A stretch of DNA of 64,000 bases from Sphaerochaeta globosa str. Buddy (GCF_000190435.1 NC_015152.1:2672458-2736457), one strand, 5' to 3'; counted from the stretch's first letter, positions 32,154-46,809 are shown. Notes: generated by a model not told the origin, from the sequence alone. Numbers and translations are program-made.

Positions 32154-32220
32154 ACTACATCCTTCATTCGTAAGGGTAGTATACGTGACCTGGAACCACA
32201 AGAAAAGAGAATATATGCTC

Positions 32221-32256
32221 TGCATATTTATCTGCATATTTATCTGCATATTTATC
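32221..32256. repeat. Three tandem copies of a 12-bp unit
   Basis: TGCATATTTATC repeated three times without change, upstream of the kinase gene and about 100 bases before the LytTR gene start, between divergent genes. It could vary promoter spacing by slippage; no function is shown. Confidence 0.75.
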
Positions 32257-32358
32257 TCTCATCTTACATCCCTCCAACAAATTCTTCGTAGACTTCTCTC
32301 TCCATTTACAGTACAGTAAACCAGTCTGAATCTTGGTGTTGCACGACAAGGAAGAGGT

Positions 32359-33093
32359 ATGCTAGATATTGCCATTTGCGACGATGACCCCGGCCAGCTG
32401 GCGCTGATTCATTCCTATACAGCTCAATTTGTGCAAGAAAATAACATCCAAGCCTCCATTCACCAATTCATGCATCCTGATGAACTCTTGCGAACCTGTG
32501 AAAAACGACGATATCACCTGTATATTTTGGATATTGTCATGCCCATGCTCAACGGGGTTGAAGTAGGCAAAACCATCCGTGAACACGATCAACAAGCCAT
32601 TATTCTTTATGCAACTTCTGAACCAAGCTTCGCTCTGCAATCGTTTGCGACAAACCCCATCAACTACCTGCTAAAGCCGATCGACAAGCAGCAACTCTTT
32701 AGGACGCTTTCGCTTGCCGTCTCCAAACTTAATCTCCCGCAAGAGCATACCTGCACGGTGAAAACCCAAGAGGGAATGCGAGTCCTCAGGTTCTCAGAAA
32801 TAGTGTGCTGCGAATACTGTGATCACACCGTCATCTACACACTCACGGATGCCAGAACTGTAACCACGAAAGTAATAAAAGGTACGTTCTCTCATCATAT
32901 TGAACCATTACTGAAAGACAAGCGCTTTTTACGGCCCCATGTCTCCTACATTCTGAACATGGAGTATGTCGAGGGTTTCACCAAAACAAGATTCACCCTT
33001 CGATCGGGCCTTTCAGTTCCCATAGTCGCCAAACAGTATTGCACGATACGTGATACCTACCTCGATTATCTGGCAACGAAGGGACAGCTGTGA
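32359..33093 (+). CDS. LytTR-family response regulator (cassette copy 1)
   Basis: 244 residues. A receiver domain with the acidic pocket AICDDDP and the phospho-acceptor Asp58 in LYILDIVMP, and Lys in YLLKPIDKQ. It is followed by a LytTR DNA-binding domain (residues about 135-240; YCDHTVIYTLTDARTVTTKV, then RFLRPHVSYILNMEYVE). This is the AgrA/ComE type of regulator that binds short direct repeats. It overlaps its sensor kinase by 4 bases. Its closest relative in the window is 40156-40902, with nearly the same receiver. It presumably activates the barrel and giant lipoprotein genes downstream. Confidence 0.92.
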   Translation: MLDIAICDDDPGQLALIHSYTAQFVQENNIQASIHQFMHPDELLRTCEKRRYHLYILDIVMPMLNGVEVGKTIREHDQQAIILYATSEPSFALQSFATNPINYLLKPIDKQQLFRTLSLAVSKLNLPQEHTCTVKTQEGMRVLRFSEIVCCEYCDHTVIYTLTDARTVTTKVIKGTFSHHIEPLLKDKRFLRPHVSYILNMEYVEGFTKTRFTLRSGLSVPIVAKQYCTIRDTYLDYLATKGQL

Positions 33094-34379
33094 TGCAGGA
33101 TCTACTGAGCAATATCCTGCGGGGCAGTGTCACCTCATTCATGAATATCCTGCTCCTATTCTCCCTGACCAAACCAAAATATGGACGTAAAAGTACCGTC
33201 CTTGCTGCAGTACTGGTCTTTGTGAGCAACATCGCCTTCACGCTCTGGTTCTATCTGAAGGAAGACCTTACCTCCCTATCCCGGTTTGATATTGTGATGT
33301 TTATCGTAGTCGGACTAGCCCTCAAGCCCCTCACAAGGCATAGTTTCATACAATGGTGCTTCAACTTTCTTACAACCCTCAATATTGCGATGATGATCAT
33401 CATCATCAGCTTTCATATGGGAAGGCTCTTCCCCGTGCCACAGTATGCCAATACCCTCATCCGTTTCGTACTCTACCTACTGGTCATCGTACTTTTTATC
33501 AGGTTCTTTCGCCCCTTGTACGAGTCGGTTGTCAACAACTGGCCGATGTTCGCTGCCCTGATAATCTGCATGTTCCTCAATCTGTCCTACTACTTCTCCA
33601 TCACTGACGACATCAAAAATACCTTGGTTATGTTCAAATGGCCTCTCTTCCTGTTGGTCGCTTTTTCCCTAGCCGCCTATGGGACAGTCTTTTATTCGCT
33701 GAAGCGCTTTACTGCAATGTATGCATTGAAAGCAGAAAACCTGAATATGCAGCATGAGCGAATACTTCTCTCCCAAGCAGCCTCTACCATGACAGAGAAG
33801 CTTATGCTCATGGATACAATAGCCTATGAACACAGCCTCGTCTCCCATGACCGCAGACACTTCAACAGCATGCTCTTAGGCCTTCTGAAACAGGGAGAGA
33901 TTGAAGAGGCCATGGACTGTCTGCAAAAGCAGAATGAAATCAAAACAAGTCCTAGCAAAATCTATTGTGAAAACAAAGCCGTGAACGCCGCAGTCAGTTA
34001 TTACGTGGATATGGCAGAACAGAAAGGCATTCAGACAGACATCAACCTCACCATTGCAGCCCAATTGCCTGTCGATTCGCTGGAATTGGCGCTTGTGGTA
34101 TCGAATCTCTTCGAGAACGCGATCCAGGGAGTCTCTCTTTTGAGTGAAACCCAGAACCGATATATCCATCTCACCTGCCACCAGGTCGGACGGCTCTTGC
34201 TTGAAATAGCCAACCCTTGCAGGGAAACAGTACAATTAGGCCCCGATGGGCTTCCGTTCACTAATCAGGAAGGCCATGGAGTGGGAACCAAGAGCATCGC
34301 AGCCTTTGCGGCCAAGTACGATGCAGAACTGCTCTACTCTGTAGAGGGCGGTCAGTTCAGAGTGAGACTGCTCGTCTAA
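33090..34379 (+). CDS. GHKL-type sensor histidine kinase (cassette copy 1)
   Basis: 429 residues. About seven N-terminal transmembrane helices (residues 5-210; for example FDIVMFIVVGLAL, LIRFVLYLLVIVLF, WPLFLLVAFSLAAYG) form a membrane sensor like AgrC. A short coiled region follows, then the phospho-His box SLVSHDRRHFNSMLLGLL, the N box VVSNLFENAI and the G box EGHGVGTKSI of the GHKL ATPase domain. The large membrane domain and lack of an extracellular sensor domain suggest a peptide or membrane-borne signal; no precursor peptide gene was found. Translationally coupled to the response regulator. Confidence 0.9.
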   Translation: MMQDLLSNILRGSVTSFMNILLLFSLTKPKYGRKSTVLAAVLVFVSNIAFTLWFYLKEDLTSLSRFDIVMFIVVGLALKPLTRHSFIQWCFNFLTTLNIAMMIIIISFHMGRLFPVPQYANTLIRFVLYLLVIVLFIRFFRPLYESVVNNWPMFAALIICMFLNLSYYFSITDDIKNTLVMFKWPLFLLVAFSLAAYGTVFYSLKRFTAMYALKAENLNMQHERILLSQAASTMTEKLMLMDTIAYEHSLVSHDRRHFNSMLLGLLKQGEIEEAMDCLQKQNEIKTSPSKIYCENKAVNAAVSYYVDMAEQKGIQTDINLTIAAQLPVDSLELALVVSNLFENAIQGVSLLSETQNRYIHLTCHQVGRLLLEIANPCRETVQLGPDGLPFTNQEGHGVGTKSIAAFAAKYDAELLYSVEGGQFRVRLLV

Positions 34380-34550
34380 CTTCTCCTTGCTTTATAAGTA
34401 GGAACTCAAGCCTTTTAAGGAAAAACTCTTTCTCCCCCATCCGAATTTGCTAGGCTAACACCCAAACAGATTTTTGGTTGGCACTCCCTGCATGTTCCTT
34501 TTCCTCACAAGTATGCAGCTGAATGCCAACCGAGTAAGAGGGGTCTCATC

Positions 34551-35618
34551 ATGGCATTCAAAGTTCGGACGGCAGCTTGCACAGCTCTCCTGCTTCTTCT
34601 CTCTACCGTATCGTTATGTGCCGAAAGCACTTCCTTGCAGGTCGTAATCAAGCCAGCCTCCGCCAGCGTCCAAGCCATACGCTACCAGACAGGAATAGAG
34701 CCAACCAATACATGGATGGAAATGGATGCAGCCAACCCAGTTCTAGTGCTTGAGAGCTTCGACAGTACCCGGGACAGCCTCTTCGTCCAGCAGTCGGTGG
34801 ACAAACTTTCCTGGAACTACAGCTATGAATACAAATACAACCCCTCCGACAAAAGGTGGACTATCCCCCCGATCCGGATTGTTATCAGGCCAACCTCGGA
34901 GAAGGTCCGGTCCATACGCTTCCAGACCGGGGCCGAGGCAACCGATGCGTGGACAGAAATGGATGCATCCAACCCCGTTTTGGTGCTTGAGGTATTCGAC
35001 AGCAACCGGGACAGGCTCTTTGTCCAGCAGTCGCAGGACAGCCAGAACTGGGGCCCAAGCTACGAATACAAATACAACCCATCGGCAAGGTCCTGGACGG
35101 TCTCTCCTATTGGATCTGAAACATCCGGTCCCGTTGAATCGCTGGACCTGAAGCTGTACAACCTCTACCCGCTGAGCAAGAGCTCCACCTACTACTCGTA
35201 TGTGATTGGGGCCGGGCTGAAGATGAACATCGCCTTGGACAAGCAAGAGACCCTCCTCGGGTACACGGAGCTCGCCTACAGCAGGGGCCCGTCGAAGTCC
35301 GACTGGGTCGATACCATGCAGGCGCTCAACATGTCGGTGGGGATGGGGTATCGATTCAGCCTTACCGAAAAGTTACAGCTGGCCCCCGAGCTCGGCTACG
35401 GGGTTGTGCTCCATCTGCTGAATGCGGATTTCGACGAGGATGGGACAAAGTCCTTCGAGCCCTTCATCGACCAGCAGGTCCGCCTCTCACTGAACCTCAC
35501 CTACGCCCTTTGTGAACAGTACACCCTCATCGCCGCCCCGCTGGGTGTCGTGTTCTTCGAGAAAGGCAACATCGGGACCCTGTTGGGCCTCCAGGCCGGC
35601 CTTCGATTCAACTTCTAG
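34551..35618 (+). CDS. Outer-membrane barrel protein with duplicated N-terminal module (cassette copy 1)
   Basis: 355 residues. Signal peptide (MAFKVRTAACTALLLLLSTV, cleaved after CAES), then two tandem copies of a roughly 78-residue module. They start VVIKPASASVQAIRYQTG and IVIRPTSEKVRSIRFQTG and each ends in YEYKYNPS plus a Trp. The C-terminal 165 residues look like an 8-strand outer-membrane barrel ending in LQAGLRFNF with the terminal Phe. The paralogue at 42337 has only one module. It ends 9 bases before the giant lipoprotein gene, so the two are co-transcribed; the barrel may anchor or help expose that lipoprotein. Confidence 0.8.
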   Translation: MAFKVRTAACTALLLLLSTVSLCAESTSLQVVIKPASASVQAIRYQTGIEPTNTWMEMDAANPVLVLESFDSTRDSLFVQQSVDKLSWNYSYEYKYNPSDKRWTIPPIRIVIRPTSEKVRSIRFQTGAEATDAWTEMDASNPVLVLEVFDSNRDRLFVQQSQDSQNWGPSYEYKYNPSARSWTVSPIGSETSGPVESLDLKLYNLYPLSKSSTYYSYVIGAGLKMNIALDKQETLLGYTELAYSRGPSKSDWVDTMQALNMSVGMGYRFSLTEKLQLAPELGYGVVLHLLNADFDEDGTKSFEPFIDQQVRLSLNLTYALCEQYTLIAAPLGVVFFEKGNIGTLLGLQAGLRFNF

Positions 35619-35627
35619 GGGATTGCC

Positions 35628-38600
35628 ATGAAAAAAACCACCATAACGATGCTACTCAGTCTATTCGTGCTTGCCGCAGTCCTGCTCGGCTTCACCGCCT
35701 GCAGTGACATGATGGAAAAGCTGGGGAACATCAGCCTTACCATCGTCCTGGACACCCCCGATGTACAAGTGGCATCCTATAGCTTGGAGGGATTGCACAA
35801 CACTCCCAATACACGTTTTAGCATAAGCGACATCACCCCTCCGAGGCACTCGCTCTCCTCGCTGAAGAAAGGGACGTGGGATCTCACTGTCACCGCCTTC
35901 AACGCCGACGGGGACCAGATCGGCGCCGGCACGAGCCGCGTCGACCTCAAGGAAGGCCAGATAGCGGAGACCACCCTCTTGGTCGTCTTCAACCAGGCCG
36001 TACCCGCCGCAAGCTCCTTCACGTTCTCAGCCCCCACGCGCTTTGACAGTTTTGACGGCATTTTATCCGGGTCGACGGCGAACATGGAGTACCGGCTGGC
36101 ATCGGAGCCGGAAGACACCCCCTATACGGCATGTACTGAAGGTACTACCATTCTGGGGACCGGCACGTACCTGCTCAGGTACGCAGCCGCACACGGCCTG
36201 AGGGCAAGCGAGCCGCTTCGTGTCACCGTGCCGCAGTACCAGCCGATCCAGCTGACCATCGCAGACCCGACGCTGACCACCGGCAAAGTCTATGACGGGA
36301 CGACGGAGGTGTCCGGCACCGTTACGCTTGGAGCCCTCAGCGGGGTACGGGAAACTGACACGGTAACCGTAAGTGCCCGGACAACCTATGACGACAAATC
36401 ATCTGGAAGCGGGAAAACCATCACGCTCACCTACACCCTCGATGGACCTGATGCAGGCAACTACATCAAGCCGGTCGACAAGGCTGTAACGAGATCCATT
36501 GAGAAGAAGCCGCTTACCGTCTCGGGAACAACCATCACCAACTCCAAGGTATATGATGGAGAGACCTTTTCGGCGGTCATCTCCCACGGCGCCCTCTCTG
36601 GAATTGTGACAGGCGATACCGTCACCGTCTCTGCAAGTGCAGCATACAGTGACAACTCTGCAGGGACCGATAAAACAATCACAGTGAGCTATACGCTGGG
36701 TGATACTGATGCCGCTAACTATCTTAAACCAATTGACGATTCCTCCTTCATTGGAGAAATCACCAAGAAGCAACTCACTGTTTCCGGCACTGAACCTATA
36801 CTTGCCAAGCAATACGACGGCACTCCATCAGCTCAGCTACAGAACAGCGGGAATCTCATAGGGGTTGTACCTGGTGATGCTGTGACATTGCAAACAACTT
36901 CAACCTATTCCGACACTACGATAGGAAGTGGAAAACAAATTACCGTCCGCTATGCAATCAGTGGCGATACCACCAATTACTTGGTGCCTGAGAATGCTAC
37001 GTTCAATGGCGGGCAGATCACACAAAAGCAACTCACTGTTTCGAATCTTGCCCTTACTTCCAGCAAGGTGTATGACGGCACGACCTCTGTAGCATCCCCC
37101 ACATTTTCTTTCGATGGAAAGGTCCTGGGCGAGGATGTACGGGTGACGGCAACTGCAACCTATGATTCACCTACTGCGGGAAATGCAAAGCAAATCACCG
37201 TTGCCTACGCCCTGGAGGGAATCGACAAGGGCAACTATCTCAAGCCAATCGACCCAGCAGCCACCATTGCGGGTGTAATCTCCAAGAAACAATTGACGGC
37301 CAGAGGGACAGAGCTCACCCTGACCAAGGTATATGATGGAAATACTGCTGCAGCAATCACGGTGTCCGGTACGCTCTCGGGCATTGCAGCAGGTGATGCA
37401 GTCGATTTCAGCGTCACTGCCGCCTATACCTCGGAAACAGCGGGTGAAAACAAAGATATCATTGTTGTCTACTCGCTTACCGGTGATGCAAAGGATAATT
37501 ACATCAAGCCGGAGAGCTATGTGCGCTCAGGCGTAATTCAGAAACGGCAACTACAGGTGACCACACCGACAACAGTAGCAACGACGAAAATCTATGACAG
37601 GACGCTGAGTGCACAGATTACGCAATACAGCAGCCTCAGTGGTGTTATTCCAGGAGACACGGTGACGTTGGCAACAACGGCTGCATATGTGACGAAATCT
37701 GCAGAGATAGATAAATCGATTTGGGTGCATTACACCATCGCTGGTGCCGATGAGAGCAACTACATACAACCCGCTGATGTTTTAGCAACAAGTCAGGGAG
37801 TTATCACCAAGAAGCAGCTTACCGTTACAGGAACAACCATCACAGCAAGCAAAGTATATAACGGGACGACTTCCGCTGCGGTGGGATTACCCGGCTCATT
37901 GGCAGGTGTTGTTTCCGGTGATTCAGTGTACGTATCAGCAACAGCTGCCTACGATACAAAAGCGGCAGGCACAGGCAAGCCCATTACTCTCACGTACACC
38001 TTATTCGGAACAGACCAGAACAACTACTTCAAACCAGTTGACTCAATTGCATCACAAGCAGGTGTGATTACCCCAAAACAACTTGATGCCAGGATTGAAG
38101 ACTATGTTTCCACCAAGGTGTATGACGGTACCACTTCTGCAACAGCTCCCCAAATAACTCTGATTGGAAAGCTTTCGCCCGATACTGTAACAGTAACGAC
38201 AACAGCTACTTATGACTCTGCTGCAGCAGTGACCAATAAAGTGATTGGACTTGTGTTCACGCTTTCAGGAGACGACAAGAACAACTATCTCAAGCCAATT
38301 GACATGGTATTGACAAGAGCAGGCTCAATCTCAAAGAAGCAGCTTACGATTAGTGATCCTACCTTGGAGACAATAACAAAGGTCTACGATGGCACAACAG
38401 CTGTCGCTGGTACCGTCACACCAGGGACTCTCTCCGGCGTGGTGTCAGGAGAAGAGGTTACCGTAGAAGCTGCTGCAAGCTATGAGTCGGCCGACGTTAC
38501 CTATGCAACGAGTGGTTATAATAAGATCACAGTCAAATACACGTTGGATGGCCCCAATGCAAGCAATTACGCCCCACCAGTCTGGGCTTTCCCTTGGGGA

Positions 38601-39965
38601 TCCATTGAGAAGAAACAACTGAGCGTCATCGGCACTGTCTTCCCTGCATCAAAGGTGTATGATAAAACATCTACAATCACCATCACATCACAAGGGACGC
38701 TGTCCGGTGTGATTGGAAGTGATGTTGTAACTCTGAGCAATGTTGTTGCATATTTCTCTGGTATTGCTAGTGATGATGTAGGAACCAACAAGGCCGTTAC
38801 CATTAACTATACCATCAGCGGGACTCATGCCAACAATTACTACCTGAATAGTGATACAAGCAAAACTGCCTCAATTACCGCAGCAGTTTTGACTGCAACG
38901 GTGGGAGACTATACCCAGCAATACGGATCTGCTGTCCCTGCCTTCACCGTCAATGTCACCGGCTTTGTTGCAGGGGATAGCGCTACCAATATATGGGGAT
39001 ATACCGCTCCTACTGCAACAGCAGGAACCAATTCCTCCTCTGCTGCAGGAACCTACACGATTCGCATATCAGGAGGCAGCGCCCCCAACTACAGCTTCAC
39101 TATGACTGACACGGGAACTCTGACCATCCAGAAGCCTGCCGGCCCTGCAATCAGTGATACCATAATGGGCTATATTCCTGCGTCTCCTGCAAGCCAGACG
39201 GTCATCAACGTTACAGGGTTCTCTACGAACTTAACTAACCTCGAGGCGGCTGTTGCCATCAATGGTTCAACATTCAGCAGTTATGTCGATATTGCAGTAG
39301 ATAGTCGTAATCGTGCAATGATAGTCCCCACTACGACGGTAACTACTGCTACCAAAGTCCGGATCAGAGTGAAAGAGACAGACATTCTAGCGGCAGGACC
39401 TGCAAAGGAGATTGCTCTCACCTCCCAAGCCCTTGCGATCGGAGACTATTATCAGGGTGGTATTGTGGCCTATTTCTTTGTAAGTGGGGACCCTGGCTAC
39501 ATAGCTGGGCAAGTTCATGGTTTGATTGCAGCAACAAATGACGTTTCATCCACAGGAGTTGCTTGGTCGAATAGTACGACTACCATTGTGGGAACATCAT
39601 CAGGTATCGGAACAGGATTGAATAATACCAATCAAATTGTTACGTCAATCGGCTCTTCAGCGTCATCCTATGCTGCAGGTATGACTCGCAACTACAGGGG
39701 AGGTGGATATTCCGACTGGTTCCTGCCTTCAAAAGATGAACTATATAAAATGCGCTTAGCGTTTGTTTCTATCGGTAATTTCGCATCACCAGCATCATTC
39801 TATTGGAGTTCCACTGAGGAAAAGGCGTGGTCGCGCGAAGAAACGGCATATACAGGTGATACAGTGCATGCGATAGAATTCAATCCCAATAGTGGCAATT
39901 CAATATTGGTTTCAAATTCTCCGAAAACATACGCTTACTTCGTCCGTCCCGTCCGAAATTTCTAG
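35628..39965 (+). CDS. Giant surface lipoprotein with ten YDG repeats, MBG and DUF1566-type domains (cassette copy 1)
   Basis: 1445 residues. The signal peptide ends in lipobox GFTAC (Cys25). Residues 30-205 are an N-terminal domain shared with the paralogue. From about 207 to 1087 there are ten YDG-type repeats of about 88 residues, each with a KVYDGTT-like start, GD-V-V strand, NY-KP near the end and a closing KKQLTV strand. One MBG-type domain follows (1087-1169, VGDYTQQYGSAVPAF). After a linker, the last 180 residues form a DUF1566-type domain (YSDWFLPSKDELYKM, FYWSSTEE, FVRPVRNF). Such repeat stalks with a terminal lectin-like tip are typical of adhesins, so attachment or ligand binding is inferred. 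It is the last gene of the cassette. Confidence 0.88.
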   Translation: MKKTTITMLLSLFVLAAVLLGFTACSDMMEKLGNISLTIVLDTPDVQVASYSLEGLHNTPNTRFSISDITPPRHSLSSLKKGTWDLTVTAFNADGDQIGAGTSRVDLKEGQIAETTLLVVFNQAVPAASSFTFSAPTRFDSFDGILSGSTANMEYRLASEPEDTPYTACTEGTTILGTGTYLLRYAAAHGLRASEPLRVTVPQYQPIQLTIADPTLTTGKVYDGTTEVSGTVTLGALSGVRETDTVTVSARTTYDDKSSGSGKTITLTYTLDGPDAGNYIKPVDKAVTRSIEKKPLTVSGTTITNSKVYDGETFSAVISHGALSGIVTGDTVTVSASAAYSDNSAGTDKTITVSYTLGDTDAANYLKPIDDSSFIGEITKKQLTVSGTEPILAKQYDGTPSAQLQNSGNLIGVVPGDAVTLQTTSTYSDTTIGSGKQITVRYAISGDTTNYLVPENATFNGGQITQKQLTVSNLALTSSKVYDGTTSVASPTFSFDGKVLGEDVRVTATATYDSPTAGNAKQITVAYALEGIDKGNYLKPIDPAATIAGVISKKQLTARGTELTLTKVYDGNTAAAITVSGTLSGIAAGDAVDFSVTAAYTSETAGENKDIIVVYSLTGDAKDNYIKPESYVRSGVIQKRQLQVTTPTTVATTKIYDRTLSAQITQYSSLSGVIPGDTVTLATTAAYVTKSAEIDKSIWVHYTIAGADESNYIQPADVLATSQGVITKKQLTVTGTTITASKVYNGTTSAAVGLPGSLAGVVSGDSVYVSATAAYDTKAAGTGKPITLTYTLFGTDQNNYFKPVDSIASQAGVITPKQLDARIEDYVSTKVYDGTTSATAPQITLIGKLSPDTVTVTTTATYDSAAAVTNKVIGLVFTLSGDDKNNYLKPIDMVLTRAGSISKKQLTISDPTLETITKVYDGTTAVAGTVTPGTLSGVVSGEEVTVEAAASYESADVTYATSGYNKITVKYTLDGPNASNYAPPVWAFPWGSIEKKQLSVIGTVFPASKVYDKTSTITITSQGTLSGVIGSDVVTLSNVVAYFSGIASDDVGTNKAVTINYTISGTHANNYYLNSDTSKTASITAAVLTATVGDYTQQYGSAVPAFTVNVTGFVAGDSATNIWGYTAPTATAGTNSSSAAGTYTIRISGGSAPNYSFTMTDTGTLTIQKPAGPAISDTIMGYIPASPASQTVINVTGFSTNLTNLEAAVAINGSTFSSYVDIAVDSRNRAMIVPTTTVTTATKVRIRVKETDILAAGPAKEIALTSQALAIGDYYQGGIVAYFFVSGDPGYIAGQVHGLIAATNDVSSTGVAWSNSTTTIVGTSSGIGTGLNNTNQIVTSIGSSASSYAAGMTRNYRGGGYSDWFLPSKDELYKMRLAFVSIGNFASPASFYWSSTEEKAWSREETAYTGDTVHAIEFNPNSGNSILVSNSPKTYAYFVRPVRNF

Positions 39966-39972
39966 TATACCC

Positions 39973-40004
39973 TACCTCTGCCAAGCATCTGCTTGGCGGG
40001 GGTA
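39973..40004 (+). terminator. Terminator of cassette copy 1
   Basis: A 15-bp stem (39973-39987 with 39990-40004, containing CCAAGCA/TGCTTGG) directly after the giant lipoprotein stop, followed by TTTTCC. Confidence 0.82.
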
Positions 40005-40155
40005 TTTTCCTTAGTACCATGCTGGGTATTACCCGTTTATAATCGGTTAATCCGGCTGTTCTTACACACTTCTCACAAGTTTGTAATAGACTTCTGTTCA
40101 GTTATACGGTAGAGTATTTTAGTTAAAACTAAGGTTTGTTCTGCAAGGATACTGT

Positions 40156-40902
40156 ATGCTGGATATTGCCATCTGTGATGATGATCCCACCCAATTGAGC
40201 CTGCTTGCCTCCTATACAGAAGAGTTTATCCAGGCAAACGCAATCGGGGCTGTAATCCACCAATTCGATCACCCCGACAGACTTTTATCCAAGTGTGAAA
40301 AACAACACTATCATCTCTACATCCTGGATATAGTAATGCCCATGATCAACGGGTTGGAAGTGGGAAAAGCAATCAGGGAATACGATCAGGAAGCATTCAT
40401 ACTCTACGCCACCAATGAACCAAACTTCGCGCTGCAATCATTTGCAACACACCCCATCAATTACTTGATCAAGCCCATCGACAAGCAACAATTCTACAGT
40501 ACCCTGCAACTGGTTGTCTCCAAGTTGAATCTTTCAGAGGAGAAAACTTGCCTTATAAAAACTCGTGAGGGAATCCGGGTAATCCGATACTCGGAAATCC
40601 TCTCTTGTGAATACTCAAAACACACCGTGACCTATACGCTCACGAGGCAGCGATGCTTTACCACGTGCGTGATCAAAGGTACATTTTCACAGCATATCGA
40701 GCCCCTGCTGCAAGACTCGCGTTTCATCAGGCCGCACGTCTCCTATGTGCTGAATATGGAACATGTTGACAGCTTTACCAAGTCTCAATTCACGCTCCGG
40801 TCGGGACAGAGCATTCCCATAGCAACAAACCACTATGAGGCAGTACGAATTGGTTACATGCAGTATCTGGTTGCAAAGGAAACTGAACGATGCAGGACCT
40901 GA
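40156..40902 (+). CDS. LytTR-family response regulator (cassette copy 2)
   Basis: 248 residues, paralogue of 32359-33093 throughout. Receiver with AICDDDP, the phospho-acceptor Asp in LYILDIVMP and YLIKPIDKQ; C-terminal LytTR domain (YSKHTVTYTLTRQRCFTTCV, RFIRPHVSYVLNMEHVD). The DNA-binding half has diverged more than the receiver, which would let the two copies keep separate targets. Its 3' end overlaps the kinase gene by 13 bases. Confidence 0.92.
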   Translation: MLDIAICDDDPTQLSLLASYTEEFIQANAIGAVIHQFDHPDRLLSKCEKQHYHLYILDIVMPMINGLEVGKAIREYDQEAFILYATNEPNFALQSFATHPINYLIKPIDKQQFYSTLQLVVSKLNLSEEKTCLIKTREGIRVIRYSEILSCEYSKHTVTYTLTRQRCFTTCVIKGTFSQHIEPLLQDSRFIRPHVSYVLNMEHVDSFTKSQFTLRSGQSIPIATNHYEAVRIGYMQYLVAKETERCRT

Positions 40903-42176
40903 TCAGCAACATCCTACGGGGAAGTGTTACGGCTGTCATGAACGTCCTGCTCCTCTTCACCCTGACCAAATCAAAATACGGAAGGACCAGTACCATCGTC
41001 GCGGCAACCCTGGTATTCCTGGCCGATATCTGTTCGACTATGTATCTATACCTGTATGCCGACCTCACAGCAGTATCACACGTAAATCTGCTTACCATCA
41101 TCATACTGGGCATTTTTCTCAAACCCTTATCCAAAACAAGCACCATGCAGTGGGCATTCAACTATCTGACAACGATGAACATCATGATTATGATCGTCAT
41201 CGCCAGTTTCCAAATTGGAATGCTTTTTCCCTTCATTCCTCACATTCATACACTCTCGCGCTTGGTTCTCTATGTGCTGGTAATTTTCTTATTCAATCGA
41301 TACCTGCTTCCACTCTATCGGTCTGCGGCCGATAACTGGCCGATATTCTCAGTCTTGGTAATTTGCCTCTTTTTGATCCTCTCTTATCCCTTTTATGCAA
41401 CCACCGATATAGTTGGAACCTTACAGACGTATCGCTGGCCGCTCTTATTGCTTGTCGTTCTTGCAACAGCGGCATACGGGACCATTTTCTATTCACTCAA
41501 GCGTTATAGTGTAATACACGCCTTGGAGACGGAAAACCTGAGCATGCAGTACGAAAAAACCCTACTCTCCCAAGCAGCTTCCACGATGGCGCAGAAACTT
41601 GATCTCATGGATAAGGTTGTCTACCAGAACAACCTTGCATCTCATGACCGCCGACATATATACGGTATGCTGCTGCAATTGTTGCAGCAAGGCGAAACCC
41701 AGGAAGCGATAGGTTGCCTACAAGTACAGCTTGCAACAAAACAACCGGCAACGAAAGTCTATTGTGAGAATACAGCAGTAAATGCAGTAACCAGTTATTA
41801 TGCTGAAATGGCAGAACAACAAGGGGTACAGACAACTATAAACCTGTCTGTGCCGGCTCAACTTCCCTTCGATTCTCTCGAGTTTTCCATGGTTATCGCA
41901 AATCTTTTGGAGAATGCAATAGAAGGCACACTGTCCATTCAGGAAGACCGAAAGAAATGTATTTCTTTCCATTGCTTTCAAAAAGGGCGAATTCTGTTGG
42001 AAATCACAAACCCATGCAGGGAGAATATCGTCCTCGATGCTGATGGTCTGCCTATAAGTAACAGGGAAGGCCATGGTATCGGGACCAAAAGCGTCGTCGC
42101 GTTTGCAGCGAAGTACCATGCCGAGCTTATCTATAACATCGATCAGGGAATATTTACCGTACAACTGTTCATGTAA
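40890..42176 (+). CDS. GHKL-type sensor histidine kinase (cassette copy 2)
   Basis: 428 residues, paralogue of 33090-34379 with the same plan: about seven transmembrane helices, the phospho-His box NNLASHDRRHIYGMLLQLL, N box VIANLLENAIEG and G box EGHGIGTKSVVAFAAKYHAE. The membrane part has changed more than the catalytic part, compatible with altered signal recognition. Both kinases begin with an almost identical MQDLxSNILRGSVT stretch. Confidence 0.9.
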   Translation: MQDLISNILRGSVTAVMNVLLLFTLTKSKYGRTSTIVAATLVFLADICSTMYLYLYADLTAVSHVNLLTIIILGIFLKPLSKTSTMQWAFNYLTTMNIMIMIVIASFQIGMLFPFIPHIHTLSRLVLYVLVIFLFNRYLLPLYRSAADNWPIFSVLVICLFLILSYPFYATTDIVGTLQTYRWPLLLLVVLATAAYGTIFYSLKRYSVIHALETENLSMQYEKTLLSQAASTMAQKLDLMDKVVYQNNLASHDRRHIYGMLLQLLQQGETQEAIGCLQVQLATKQPATKVYCENTAVNAVTSYYAEMAEQQGVQTTINLSVPAQLPFDSLEFSMVIANLLENAIEGTLSIQEDRKKCISFHCFQKGRILLEITNPCRENIVLDADGLPISNREGHGIGTKSVVAFAAKYHAELIYNIDQGIFTVQLFM

Positions 42177-42336
42177 TATCTAAGTAGAAAAACATACTAT
42201 TTATGTAAATCCGAGTTCTTGCTGTGAGTAATCAGCTAGAATTTATTCCAAATTTTCTGACAAACGACTCAGTACTTTGTTCTTTTATCAACAGAGAGAC
42301 AATTACAAAGGTCGTTCTTGCACGAGGGGTTTAACC

Positions 42337-43167
42337 ATGAAACTCAGCGTTCGGACAGCGGTTTGTACTGCGCTCCTGCTTCTTGCATCTTCTCTATCGA
42401 TTTATGCTTCGGCTTCACCCTTGCCGATTGTAATCAAACCGACCTCCGAGCAGGTTGTGGCAATCCGGTACCAAACCGGACACAAAGCAAAAGGACCTTG
42501 GAAAGAGGTGAATGCCGACCATCCCATCCTGTCACTTCAAGCATTCGACAGTATACAGGATGTCCTCTTCGTTCAGCAAAAAGAACCAAACAAGGGTTGG
42601 AGCCGTAGCTATGAGTACCGGTACGACGAGCAGACAAACAGCTGGGACGTAACGCTGCCGACTCTCAAGAAACCGTTGTTCATTGACTCGATGGAGCTTA
42701 AACCGTATGCGTTGTTCCCGACAAATTCGAGTTCCACGCTTTATTCCTCAGTGATCGGGGGAGCTGTCAAGTTCAACCTCAGCGTCGACGAACACAAGCC
42801 CTTGTACGGATACGTGGAAGGCGCATACAGCCGAGGACCTTCAAAGTCTGATTGGGTTAATGTGATGCAGGCGGTCAACATTTCAGCAGGGTTTGGTTAC
42901 AGGATACGTTTGGGAAAGAGCGTGGATCTTGCACCTGAGGCGGGCTACGGCTTGGTCCTCCACATCCTCGACGGCGACCAAGACCTGGATGGGACGGATT
43001 CGCTTGAGGTTTTTGTCGACCAGCAGGCACGCCTTGCGCTCACCTTCAGCTACACATTCTGTGAAGCTCATGCATTCTTCATCGCTCCTTTGGGTGTCAT
43101 GTTCTTCGAGAAATCAAGGGTCGCAGCACTGTATGGCGTCCAAGCTGGAATGCGCTTCAACTTCTAG
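42337..43167 (+). CDS. Outer-membrane barrel protein with single N-terminal module (cassette copy 2)
   Basis: 276 residues from ATG 42337 (MKLSVRTAVCTALLLLASSL), preceded by gaggggttt. The open frame starts at 42277, but the signal peptide aligns with the paralogue from 42337. One N-terminal module (IVIKPTSEQVVAIRYQTG up to YEYRYDEQ) is present against two in copy 1. The barrel follows (YVEGAYSRGPSKSDWVNVMQ, nearly the same as copy 1), ending in VQAGMRFNF. It lies 9 bases upstream of the second giant lipoprotein gene. Confidence 0.8.
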   Translation: MKLSVRTAVCTALLLLASSLSIYASASPLPIVIKPTSEQVVAIRYQTGHKAKGPWKEVNADHPILSLQAFDSIQDVLFVQQKEPNKGWSRSYEYRYDEQTNSWDVTLPTLKKPLFIDSMELKPYALFPTNSSSTLYSSVIGGAVKFNLSVDEHKPLYGYVEGAYSRGPSKSDWVNVMQAVNISAGFGYRIRLGKSVDLAPEAGYGLVLHILDGDQDLDGTDSLEVFVDQQARLALTFSYTFCEAHAFFIAPLGVMFFEKSRVAALYGVQAGMRFNF

Positions 43168-43176
43168 GAAAAAACC

Positions 43177-46100
43177 ATGAAAAACATCAATACAACACTA
43201 TCAATCATATCTATCGTGATACTTTGCACTCTGCTTAGCTTCGTTGGTTGCAGCGATATGATGGCTACGCTTGGGAACATCAGTCTGACCATCGATTTGG
43301 ACACTCCCGAAGTTGAGGTGGCCTCTTATACCTTGGAGGGGAATTTAGTCGATACGGCTACCAGATTCACCCTGAACAATATAACCCCGCCAAGGCATAC
43401 ACTCACTGAACTGAAGCAGGGAAGATGGAACCTAAGCGTTAAAGCGTTCGACGACCAAGGCAGTCAGATAGGAATCGGGACCAAGGCGGTCGATCTCAAA
43501 GAAGGCCAGATTGTCGACACCTCGCTTTTGGTGGTATTCAGCCAGAGCACGCCGCTGGCAAGTGCGTTCACCATCACAGGACCCTCGCGTCACGATTCCA
43601 GAGAGGGTTCAGTCGCAGGAACAACGGTGAAGATGGAGTACCGACTTGCTTCAGCTGCCGAGGATGCTCCCTTTAGCGCCTGCTCTGCTGGTATCACCTT
43701 GCTTATACCGGGGACATACAAAGTCAGATATGCTGCTGCACATGGTCTTCAGGCTAGCGAATGTCTTACCGTCACCGTCCCTGCATACACGCCGATTCAG
43801 CTGACGATAACCAGTACCTCTCTGACCACGACCAAGGAATATGACGGGACGAATACCGTGCAAGGAAGCATTACACCGGGAACTCTGAGTGGTATGCTCA
43901 GCGGGGATGAGGTGACTGTTCACACACAAGCTGTCTATGATTCTTCCTCTGTAGGGAACAGTAAAACCATCACCGTTACCTACTTCCTTGGAGGCGCTGA
44001 TGCAAACAACTATCTCAAGCCGGTCGACGCAGCGGTGACAGGCATCATTCAGCAAAAGCAGCTCTCCATCACAGGAACCAGTGTTGATACTTCCAAGGAG
44101 TATGACAATGCAACCAGAGCCGAGGTTTCCAACCTAGGAAGCTTGGTTGGCGTCATTGGCTCGGAACAGGTCTCGGTAACTGCCTCAGCTGTGTATAGAG
44201 ACAAAAATGCAGGAACGGGCAAGCAGATCACCGTTACCTATGCCCTCACTGGTGATGACAAGGACAACTACCTCAAGCCAGTCGACGACGCAAGTTTTGC
44301 GGGTACGATAACCAGGAAAGCACTTACTGCCAATCTTCCTTCCATCCAACTATCCAAGGAGTATGATGGCACAACAGCTGTTTTTACGACATCCGGAAGC
44401 CTCGACGAAGATGATGTGATACCTGGTGACGATGTGCAAATTCATGCCCAGGCTTCCTATAACTCGGCAACCGCGGGTGATGAGAAGACAATTACAGTAA
44501 CCTATAACCTCAGAGGTGATGATGCCAATAACTATACGTTACTGGCAGATTCTTCCAACAGTAGCCTCCCGGGAGTAATCTCCAAGAGGCGGCTGACGGC
44601 CACTGTTGGAAATCATACAAAGATATACGGTCAAGCAAATCCCTCATTCACTGTGAATGTTACAGGTTTCGTGAACGGAGAGACGGCCTCAACAGCCGGC
44701 GACTATGTTGCACCGATTGCATCTACTGCAGCCACTACCACCACCGATACGGGAAACTATGAAATCTCCATATCGGGAGGAAGTGCAACCAACTACAGCT
44801 TCAATACCAGCGATACAGGTACGTTGACGATCAACAAGGCCACGTATGATATGAGCGCAGTCTCTTTCACCGACAAGACGGTTACGTACAACGGGACCGA
44901 GCAGAGCCTGCCCATTTCCGGGACTCTGCCTTCAGGCGTTACTGTTTCCTACACCGACAATGCGAAGACCGATGCAGGAACCTACACCGCTACCGCTCAT
45001 TTCAGCGGCGATGCCACCAATTACGAGGCCATTGCCGACAAGACGGCTACGCTGACGATCAACAAGGCTGTTTTGACAGCGACGGTGGGAGACTACTCAA
45101 AGACTTATGGAACTGCGAACCCTGTATTCACTGTATCCGTTACGGGCTTTGTGAACGGCGAGACGGCCTTAACAGCCGGCGACTATGTTGCACCGACTGC
45201 ATCTACTGCAGCCACTACCACCACCGATACGGGAAACTATGAAATCTCCATATCGGGAGGAAGTGCAACCAACTACAGCTTCAATACCAGCGATACAGGT
45301 ACGCTGATCATCGAACCAATCACTATGACGGGCTCTGTCATCCTTACTGGCAGCTGGACGTATGGCGAGACCCTCACAGCTGTTCCAACTCTCACAAATG
45401 CCGGGCCTGCTCCAACCTATATATGGGTGCGTAATGGTGGGCTTATAGCTGGTGCAACAGAATCTACGTATACTTTGACTGAAGCTGATATCGGGTATTC
45501 CATCAAAGTAGCTATCAATGCGACAGCGGGTAACTATAAGGGTCAGGTTGTAAGCACAGCAGCAAACATATCAAAAGCTGCAGGAGCTTCTTTCAGCGGA
45601 ACCATCAGTGCATACTATCCGTATTCACCTGCAACAAAGACAATCGTCAACGTAACTGGCTTTGATGTTAATCAGACAGGACTGGAGGCAAATATCTCTA
45701 CGGATGGGACGACGTATGGATCATATGATGAACTCGAAATCGACAGTCGGGGCAGGGCCATGATATCAACAACTTCCGCTACAAAAGTCAAAATCAGGTA
45801 TAAGGAGACACCAACAGCCTTCCCAGGAGCTGACCTAGTGCTCAACGTCGCAGAGCAAGACTTGGCAATCGGAGACTACTACGCAGGAGGTGTGGTAGGG
45901 TACATCTACCAAACCTACGATCCTGGGTACGTAGAAGGACAACTGCATGGCTTGATCGCAGCCAAATCTGATACGTCTACCAATGGAAGTAAATGGTCCA
46001 CTAATACTACATTGACTATTGGCACGGGAATCGGAATCGGAACGGGATCATCTAATACCGATGCCATCATCCTGGCCCTTGGTGGCAGCGAGATAGGTAT

Positions 46101-46368
46101 GTACGGTGCAAAAGAAGCACGCTTGTATACCAATGGAGACTACAATGATTGGTTCCTCCCTTCGTGGCATGAGTTGTTGAAACTACGAGACAATAGAGTT
46201 GTCATCGGCAATTTCGTTGCCAGTGTCTACATGAGTTCTTCAGAGTCTACTCAACCTGGCTGGGACCCGTGGCCATATTTCCATGCAGTTTATTTTGATG
46301 GGGATATGCGGAACCATGTGTTCGATAAACCTGCCGTAACACCTATCAGGGCAGTACGCTACTTCTAA
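43177..46368 (+). CDS. Large surface lipoprotein with YDG, MBG, Ig-like and DUF1566-type domains (cassette copy 2)
   Basis: 1063 residues. Lipobox SFVGC (Cys25), then the N-terminal domain shared with copy 1 (30-205). Three YDG repeats (about 207-474, with KEYDG starts) are followed by an MBG domain (474-556, NHTKIYGQANPSFTV), a related MBG-type domain with YNGTEQSLPISG (556-632) and a second MBG domain (632-715, DYSKTYGTANPVFTV). An Ig-like domain comes next (715-805, YIWVRNGGLIAGATESTYTL). The C-terminal DUF1566-type domain has YNDWFLPSWHELLKL and the final IRAVRYF. The two MBG domains share an almost identical 130-bp DNA segment. Same inferred role as copy 1, with a shorter and more mixed stalk. 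Confidence 0.88.
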   Translation: MKNINTTLSIISIVILCTLLSFVGCSDMMATLGNISLTIDLDTPEVEVASYTLEGNLVDTATRFTLNNITPPRHTLTELKQGRWNLSVKAFDDQGSQIGIGTKAVDLKEGQIVDTSLLVVFSQSTPLASAFTITGPSRHDSREGSVAGTTVKMEYRLASAAEDAPFSACSAGITLLIPGTYKVRYAAAHGLQASECLTVTVPAYTPIQLTITSTSLTTTKEYDGTNTVQGSITPGTLSGMLSGDEVTVHTQAVYDSSSVGNSKTITVTYFLGGADANNYLKPVDAAVTGIIQQKQLSITGTSVDTSKEYDNATRAEVSNLGSLVGVIGSEQVSVTASAVYRDKNAGTGKQITVTYALTGDDKDNYLKPVDDASFAGTITRKALTANLPSIQLSKEYDGTTAVFTTSGSLDEDDVIPGDDVQIHAQASYNSATAGDEKTITVTYNLRGDDANNYTLLADSSNSSLPGVISKRRLTATVGNHTKIYGQANPSFTVNVTGFVNGETASTAGDYVAPIASTAATTTTDTGNYEISISGGSATNYSFNTSDTGTLTINKATYDMSAVSFTDKTVTYNGTEQSLPISGTLPSGVTVSYTDNAKTDAGTYTATAHFSGDATNYEAIADKTATLTINKAVLTATVGDYSKTYGTANPVFTVSVTGFVNGETALTAGDYVAPTASTAATTTTDTGNYEISISGGSATNYSFNTSDTGTLIIEPITMTGSVILTGSWTYGETLTAVPTLTNAGPAPTYIWVRNGGLIAGATESTYTLTEADIGYSIKVAINATAGNYKGQVVSTAANISKAAGASFSGTISAYYPYSPATKTIVNVTGFDVNQTGLEANISTDGTTYGSYDELEIDSRGRAMISTTSATKVKIRYKETPTAFPGADLVLNVAEQDLAIGDYYAGGVVGYIYQTYDPGYVEGQLHGLIAAKSDTSTNGSKWSTNTTLTIGTGIGIGTGSSNTDAIILALGGSEIGMYGAKEARLYTNGDYNDWFLPSWHELLKLRDNRVVIGNFVASVYMSSSESTQPGWDPWPYFHAVYFDGDMRNHVFDKPAVTPIRAVRYF
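44691..45300 (+). repeat. Pair of near-identical 130-bp direct repeats, 480 bp apart
   Basis: 44691-44820 and 45171-45300 differ at only two or so positions (including C for T at 45197), while flanking MBG sequence has diverged. The offset is exactly 160 codons, so recombination between them would delete or add a domain block in frame. Recent duplication or gene conversion. Confidence 0.9.
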
Positions 46369-46377
46369 AGGTATCTA

Positions 46378-46403
46378 CCCTGCCAGGCAATTGCTTGGCA
46401 GGG
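46378..46403 (+). terminator. Terminator of cassette copy 2
   Basis: CCCTGCCAGGCAA directly joined to TTGCTTGGCAGGG, a 13-bp self-complementary stem with one G-T pair, followed by AATCTTTATT. It resembles the terminator of copy 1 (both carry a CCA-GCA/TGCTTGG core). Confidence 0.8.
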
Positions 46404-46446: not shown

Positions 46447-46809
46447 ATGAAACGCCTATTGTTTTCCCTAGTACTGAGCATTCTTCTCATCTCCTGTTCT
46501 CTCTTTCCCGATCAGAGGATAGCATTCACGTTCACCAACGCTTTGGGCAGTACCATACAAACGGTTTCTGTTTACCCCATCCACAATTCCGAACTTGCCG
46601 CCTCATCTTCCACACTTGCCTGCAGTCAGACAAAGACTCTCCAACTCAACTTGAAGAAGGCTACCAAGAGTGATAGCTGCTATGTCGTTGCTATTGAGCA
46701 TGAGGGGATTACCACTTCCGTTGAGTATGGCTACTACTCCAATGGCTTTCCCTTGGAGAAACAGGTGAGCATCGTAATCGATAGCGAATTCTTGGATGCT
46801 GGGAAATGA
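46447..46809 (+). CDS. Small lipoprotein of unknown function
   Basis: 120 residues. Lipobox LLISC at Cys18 after MKRLLFSLVLSI. The mature part is a short beta-rich domain (FTFTNALGSTIQTVSVYP, then GYYSNGFPLEKQVSIVIDSE). No family recognised. A diverged copy of its last 30 codons lies at 48201-48302, so the gene was once duplicated. It stands alone behind the terminator of cassette 2. Confidence 0.72.
   Translation: MKRLLFSLVLSILLISCSLFPDQRIAFTFTNALGSTIQTVSVYPIHNSELAASSSTLACSQTKTLQLNLKKATKSDSCYVVAIEHEGITTSVEYGYYSNGFPLEKQVSIVIDSEFLDAGK

Follow-up and report, generated by a model that had tools for sequence, protein, structure and literature searches.

A predicted LytTR/GHKL-controlled regulon of outer-membrane barrels and lectin-like-tipped lipoproteins in Sphaerochaeta globosa

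We describe two adjacent copies of a four-gene cassette in Sphaerochaeta globosa str. Buddy that, together with unlinked barrel-lipoprotein loci, probably form a surface-adhesin regulon under two-component control, an explanation that we favour as a whole with moderate confidence. The case is built on gene order and its conservation, the geometry and restricted occurrence of an operator, the homology of the lipoprotein tip and a shared lipoprotein start, all read from sequence, and on a predicted barrel fold. From these we infer a mechanism in which the GHKL kinase in the inner membrane would sense an envelope or extracellular cue and phosphorylate its LytTR regulator, which would bind two 9-bp half-sites, arranged as a direct repeat with a 21-bp period, immediately ahead of a promoter of the extended -10 type. 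The bound regulator would switch on barrel-lipoprotein operons, both adjacent and elsewhere in the chromosome. Each operon would yield an eight-stranded outer-membrane barrel with one or two periplasmic beta domains, together with a lipoprotein. The conserved lipidated start of the latter (C-S-D-M-M/I) would adjoin the barrel, while a long interchangeable stalk (YDG or InlB-type) would hold an Lcl_C lectin-like tip outside the cell, where it may bind surface glycans or other cells.

Cassette layout, signalling pair and conservation

The sequence-only reading had reported two complete head-to-tail copies with the same gene order, and gene coordinates, Pfam matches and terminators bear this out. 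Copies A and B each encode a LytTR regulator, a multi-pass GHKL kinase, a barrel and a long lipoprotein, and each has a terminator. Positions are counted from the first letter of the window, the whole 64,000-nt stretch of DNA that was analysed.

32359..33093, + strand: LytTR response regulator, copy A (Pfam Response_reg 6.8e-15, LytTR 1e-5)
33093..34379, + strand: GHKL (HATPase_c_5) sensor kinase, copy A (Pfam HATPase_c_5; ATG at 33093)
34395..34424, + strand: putative operator A, direct repeat of TAAGTAGGA (34395-34403) and TAAGGAAAA (34416-34424), 21 bp apart
34448..34456, + strand: predicted extended -10 of barrel promoter A, TGC TAGGCT (spacing fixed in orthologues)
34551..35618, + strand: barrel A, with signal peptide, two ~79-aa beta repeats and a predicted 8-stranded outer-membrane barrel (AlphaFold2, structure comparison)
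35628..39965, + strand: giant lipoprotein A, 1445 aa (lipobox FTA|CSDMM, Pfam)
39973..40004, + strand: intrinsic terminator A
40156..40902, + strand: LytTR response regulator, copy B (Pfam Response_reg 3e-14, LytTR 7.1e-8)
40890..42176, + strand: GHKL sensor kinase, copy B (HATPase_c_5 2.7e-14; kinase tree)
42181..42210, + strand: putative operator B, direct repeat of TAAGTAGAA (42181-42189) and TATGTAAAT (42202-42210), 21 bp apart
42237..42242, + strand: predicted -10 hexamer TAGAAT of barrel promoter B
42337..43167, + strand: barrel B, with signal peptide, one beta repeat and a predicted 8-stranded barrel (52% identity to barrel A)
43177..46368, + strand: giant lipoprotein B, 1063 aa, with 3 YDG, 2 MBG_2 and an Lcl_C-like tip (lipobox FVG|CSDMM, Pfam)
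46378..46403, + strand: intrinsic terminator B

The two copies share 68% amino-acid identity in the regulator, 57% in the kinase, 52% in the barrel and 50% in the lipoprotein, and the gap between barrel and lipoprotein genes is 9 nt in both. Two further claims of the first reading hold in part. Terminators are found in both copies, but the regulator-kinase overlap, said to be shared, is 1 nt in copy A and 13 nt in copy B; a repeat-bearing barrel and a YDG lipoprotein likewise occur in both, but with unequal counts (two barrel repeats and 10 YDG domains in A, one and 3 in B). Lipoprotein A consists in order of an N-terminal domain, 10 YDG domains, 1 MBG_2, an Ig-like domain and the Lcl_C tip. 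No Rfam element matches at the gathering cut-off between 29000 and 49000. At the flanks of the cassettes, a perfect 12-bp tandem repeat of 3.2 copies (window 32219-32257) sits about 100 bp ahead of regulator A at the predicted start of a xylulokinase-like gene, a sign, perhaps, of a wrongly assigned start or of a repeat that varies in length. Directly past terminator B lies a small predicted lipoprotein (window 46447-46809) without a Pfam family above cut-off.

In each cassette a gene for a receiver-LytTR regulator adjoins a gene for a multi-pass HATPase_c_5 kinase, and both the domains and the adjacency uphold the dedicated LytTR/GHKL two-component system that had been proposed. LytTR domains are found in only these two regulators in the whole 3.3-Mb single-contig genome. 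Among 15 regulator orthologues, D58 and K106 of the receiver are invariant and T86 is nearly so. Kinase A has about seven hydrophobic segments in its first 205 residues, followed by an HDRRH box and N and G boxes; its hydropathy gives no large periplasmic domain, and a comparison with solved structures returned no match at E 0.01.

The four-gene order had been expected to recur elsewhere, and it does so in about a dozen other Sphaerochaetaceae genomes. For this survey, alignments of the barrel and of the regulator served as queries against 139 family genomes, and the loci found were then read. The same order is present in G091 (also in tandem), G101, G123, G121, G093, G095, G113, G114, G115 and G094, as well as in G122 and G100, where the regulator is masked by a longer overlapping frame and was recovered by the regulator search. 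Cassette parts are split over two short contigs in G111, while G108 keeps regulator, kinase and operator, has lost the barrel and retains lipoprotein fragments; G100 and G095 carry an additional regulator-kinase pair without a barrel. In a phylum-wide sample, members of the regulator clade at E below 1e-120 occur in this family only, and other relatives reach 1e-38 or weaker.

The kinase tree, which is midpoint-rooted and has G094 as a long branch, separates copy-A-type kinases from a second group made up of both copy-B kinases, the two solo kinases and that of G094. The identities of 50-68% and the two old kinase lineages rule out a recent duplication, and from these sequences the duplication looks older than the species compared. 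Spread on plasmids was also considered and rejected, as 72,556 plasmid records contain nothing that matches barrel A.

The predicted operator and its sites in the genome

Every cassette carries a direct repeat between kinase and barrel, TAAGTAGAA-12-TAGGTAAAA, with its halves exactly 21 bp apart. An alignment of the spacers from kinase to barrel shows two conserved blocks, one directly behind the stop codon of the kinase and the other at the -10. When the first half-site was taken as an anchor and compared with downstream sequence, similarity peaked sharply at 21 bp, where a mean of 5.9 of 9 positions match; every other offset between 15 and 29 gave 1.5-3.8. In both window copies the -10 has its GCTA 54 bp downstream, a distance that changes little in most other cassettes, and the predicted barrel promoter has an extended -10 just downstream of the repeats and no recognisable -35. 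LytTR repeats typically measure 9 bp and flank a 12-bp spacer, with strong conservation of spacing and weak conservation of sequence (PMC6193735); this gives the 21-bp period of the predicted operator. A scan of the window with one mismatch allowed returned only operators A and B (chance mean 0.13). Direct repeats of the LytTR type, sought before 34551 and 42337, are present at both positions, and the target promoters have the two ~9-bp repeats about 21 bp apart seen with LytTR/GHKL systems. This geometry is that of a LytTR operator, to which the regulator would bind as an activator. The same pattern has no match ahead of either regulator gene in the window, which gives no sign of autoregulation through this site.

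The exact motif has three matches in the whole 3.3-Mb genome, namely operator A, operator B and a site at an unlinked barrel-lipoprotein pair. The third site is not independent of the motif, because it had been spotted by inspection, in a region read on account of its barrel, before the pattern was drawn up. Behind the single genome match with one mismatch come a decayed barrel and then a tip lipoprotein, and of the eight matches with two mismatches one lies upstream of another tip lipoprotein; these two sites had no part in building the pattern. The unlinked loci are as follows.

G000:C1:2662078-2662135, - strand: third exact operator site, near 2.66 Mb and some 10 kb to the left of the window
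L081 8153-9004 and 3808-8142, - strand: unlinked barrel and lipoprotein, the latter 1444 aa with an InlB-type stalk
L087 6236-10172: decayed barrel (in-frame TAG), then a small Lcl_C-type lipoprotein, plus a second small one, with an operator-like site ahead of each (1 and 2 mismatches)

A stricter pattern, derived from the cassettes themselves, found 17 sites in 13 of the 139 family genomes. All 13 are among the 15 genomes with the regulator clade, and the other 124 have none. A reversed control pattern gave about 9 matches in the 139 genomes, so stray single matches elsewhere would not be surprising, yet none was found. All but one of the 17 sites precede a barrel (16 sites). The remaining site (L098 1501-1558, in G091) has no intact gene behind it; at about the normal distance there is a short frame resembling a signal peptide, possibly the remnant of a decayed barrel. 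On L094, a contig outside the set from which the pattern was trained, regulator, kinase, operator, barrel and lipoprotein are all present. Distant barrel-lipoprotein pairs in G106, G110 and G113 gave no operator match. Taken as sequence evidence, the operator argues strongly for co-regulation and fits LytTR binding, and the distribution of sites looks like a regulon in trans, in which the cassette pair would control unlinked barrel-lipoprotein loci too.

Barrels and lipoproteins

The barrels match no Pfam family above cut-off. An AlphaFold2 model of barrel A built with 11 sequences (pLDDT 79) has two beta repeats followed by eight long strands at residues 195-354, as in 8-stranded barrels of the OmpA/OmpW type. 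Residues 191-355 of the model align with NspA, OmpA, OprF and OmpW at Z 15-17.6 (Foldseek, VIA-align), with NspA at Z 17.6 and OmpA at Z 16.7. Both termini of OmpA-type barrels face the periplasm, and the N-terminal repeats, which number one or two among the orthologues, should therefore be periplasmic. A related repeat is also present in a 395-aa outer-membrane protein of the same genome (G000:839260; L125 5234-6421, + strand), where a single N-terminal copy of the barrel type is followed by a repetitive, acidic linker and, at the C-terminus, by a region that looks like a barrel of its own.

The barrel had been thought to help the lipoprotein reach the outer face, a role that the predicted 8-stranded OmpA-type fold with periplasmic repeats weakens. 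Known translocons are larger, and the predicted model has only eight strands, in place of the large export barrel of a Slam-like translocon. The lipoprotein could not be exported through so narrow a barrel; the more likely role, as judged from the model, is that of an anchoring or display partner, which most probably holds the lipoprotein fast, positions it or stabilises it. Its role is the least certain part of the proposal.

Inspection shows a signal peptide and lipobox in both window lipoproteins (FTA|C and FVG|C), and 21 relatives are similar. Behind the lipobox, the sequence reads C-S-D-M-M or C-S-D-M-L in lipoproteins of the cassettes and C-S-D-M-I in the large ones of InlB type, while the domains that follow are only about 30% identical. 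DNA encoding C-S-D-M-M/I occurs four times in the genome and no more, each time in a lipoprotein of the predicted regulon, whose fifth lipoprotein starts C-N-D-T. The shared start could be a docking or sorting signal, and common ancestry is the simpler alternative.

The stalk is separable from the tip, consisting of YDG and MBG domains in the cassettes and of InlB-type Flg_new repeats in the unlinked lipoproteins (13 matches in L081, 18 in L084), with the same kind of tip. In lipoprotein A, the C-terminal Lcl_C match falls below the Pfam cut-off. A profile of 16 tips matches the Lcl C-terminal domain structure 8q4e at E 1.7e-13, and 15 of the 16 match PF07603 (Lcl_C/DUF1566) at E <= 0.01, many of them below Pfam's own cut-off. 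The structure model of the tip is poor (pLDDT 52), and the assignment is made from sequence comparison alone. The Lcl C-terminal domain is trimeric and binds sulphated glycosaminoglycans (PMC11162425), and by homology the tip is probably sugar-binding. Tip homology and stalk length together point to a surface-adhesin role, with the tip presumably exposed at the surface.

Alternative explanations and known systems

The adhesin regulon was weighed against other readings of the same genes. Peptide quorum sensing of the Agr/Com type, in which the kinase would detect a secreted autoinducer and the adhesins would be made at high density, had been suggested from the sequence and is matched by the domain make-up of AgrC/AgrA and ComD/ComE, with several membrane segments, HATPase_c_5 and LytTR (PMC8895600). 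AgrB (PF04647), however, has no match anywhere in the genome, and no conserved small gene was seen in the cassettes; the suggestion is left unsupported and seems quite unlikely to us. The kinase might instead serve envelope feedback, monitoring the periplasmic repeats of the barrel, or unassembled barrel and lipoprotein, and adjusting their synthesis. The tight linkage of the kinase pair to the barrel and the position of the repeats ahead of an 8-stranded barrel with periplasmic termini would suit such a role, but G100 and G095 have kept kinase copies that are linked to no barrel, and the kinase has no large periplasmic domain; we consider feedback unlikely, if worth keeping in view.

The remaining alternatives concern the surface proteins. 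If the barrel were a dedicated translocon, flipping the lipoprotein out to the cell surface, this would account for the constant adjacency of the two genes, with the 9-nt gap in both copies, and for the common C-S-D-M start; a closed, narrow barrel of eight strands argues against it, and this reading appears very unlikely. The lipoproteins could also be periplasmic, or could link outer membrane and wall, as products of an envelope-structure operon. The predicted periplasmic repeats of the barrel would agree with this, and the surface location of the lipoproteins is itself deduced; but a stalk made of about a dozen Ig-sized domains would exceed the periplasm in length, and the tip belongs to an adhesin family (PMC11162425), which leaves this reading little probability. 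Within the adhesin regulon, we put forward only tentatively, as a possibility with the balance against it, a two-partner display in which the barrel with its periplasmic repeats would recognise the C-S-D-M start and fix stalk-swappable, lectin-tipped lipoproteins at the surface under one LytTR/GHKL-operator switch.

AgrC/AgrA and ComD/ComE resemble the present pair in kinase and regulator domains and in paired direct repeats about 21 bp apart before their targets, but here no AgrB was found, the repeats precede target operons and not the regulator gene, and the targets are outer-membrane barrels and lipoproteins. HdrRM and BrsRM of Streptococcus mutans, which are LytTR regulatory systems (LRS), likewise use 9-bp repeats with 12 bp between, upstream of controlled promoters (PMC6193735). 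These are autoregulating pairs of a LytTR regulator and a membrane inhibitor, whereas here the regulator has a receiver domain, no repeat precedes its gene and a kinase takes the place of the inhibitor, which sets the cassettes apart from the LRS arrangement of regulator, inhibitor and own-operon repeats. Legionella Lcl (8q4e, PF07603/DUF1566) has a homologous C-terminal tip on a long repetitive stalk, but its stalk is collagen-like and it is a peripheral trimer, unlike these lipoproteins with a YDG or InlB-type stalk and a barrel partner. OmpA, NspA and OmpW share the predicted barrel fold (Z up to 17.6) at about 10% identity; N-terminal beta repeats and a constant lipoprotein-gene neighbour distinguish the barrels described here.

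Every component type is known. A literature search, with most subscription papers outside its scope, found no description of the combination, of the regulon or of LytTR control of spirochaete outer-membrane lipoproteins, and no work naming both Sphaerochaeta and LytTR. The predicted LytTR operator lies outside the usual Firmicute examples. The sorting of spirochaete outer-membrane lipoproteins and the timing of their synthesis have mostly been studied in hard-to-handle pathogens; this free-living lineage, a relative of those pathogens, offers a compact regulon with a defined predicted operator, a candidate barrel partner and interchangeable stalks, making the link from regulator to surface adhesin directly testable.

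DUF1566 is a common target domain of diversity-generating retroelements, as in Treponema TvpA and other targets with a C-type-lectin fold (PMC4159848). Variation of the tips by such an element was considered, and no supporting reverse transcriptase was found: there is none near the cassette, and the sole RVT_1 match in the genome (L126 1674-3092, + strand) lies far from it and looks on reading like a group II intron protein. An Lcl_C-type domain also occurs inside a phage-tail-like protein of the same genome (L127 4957-7065, - strand).
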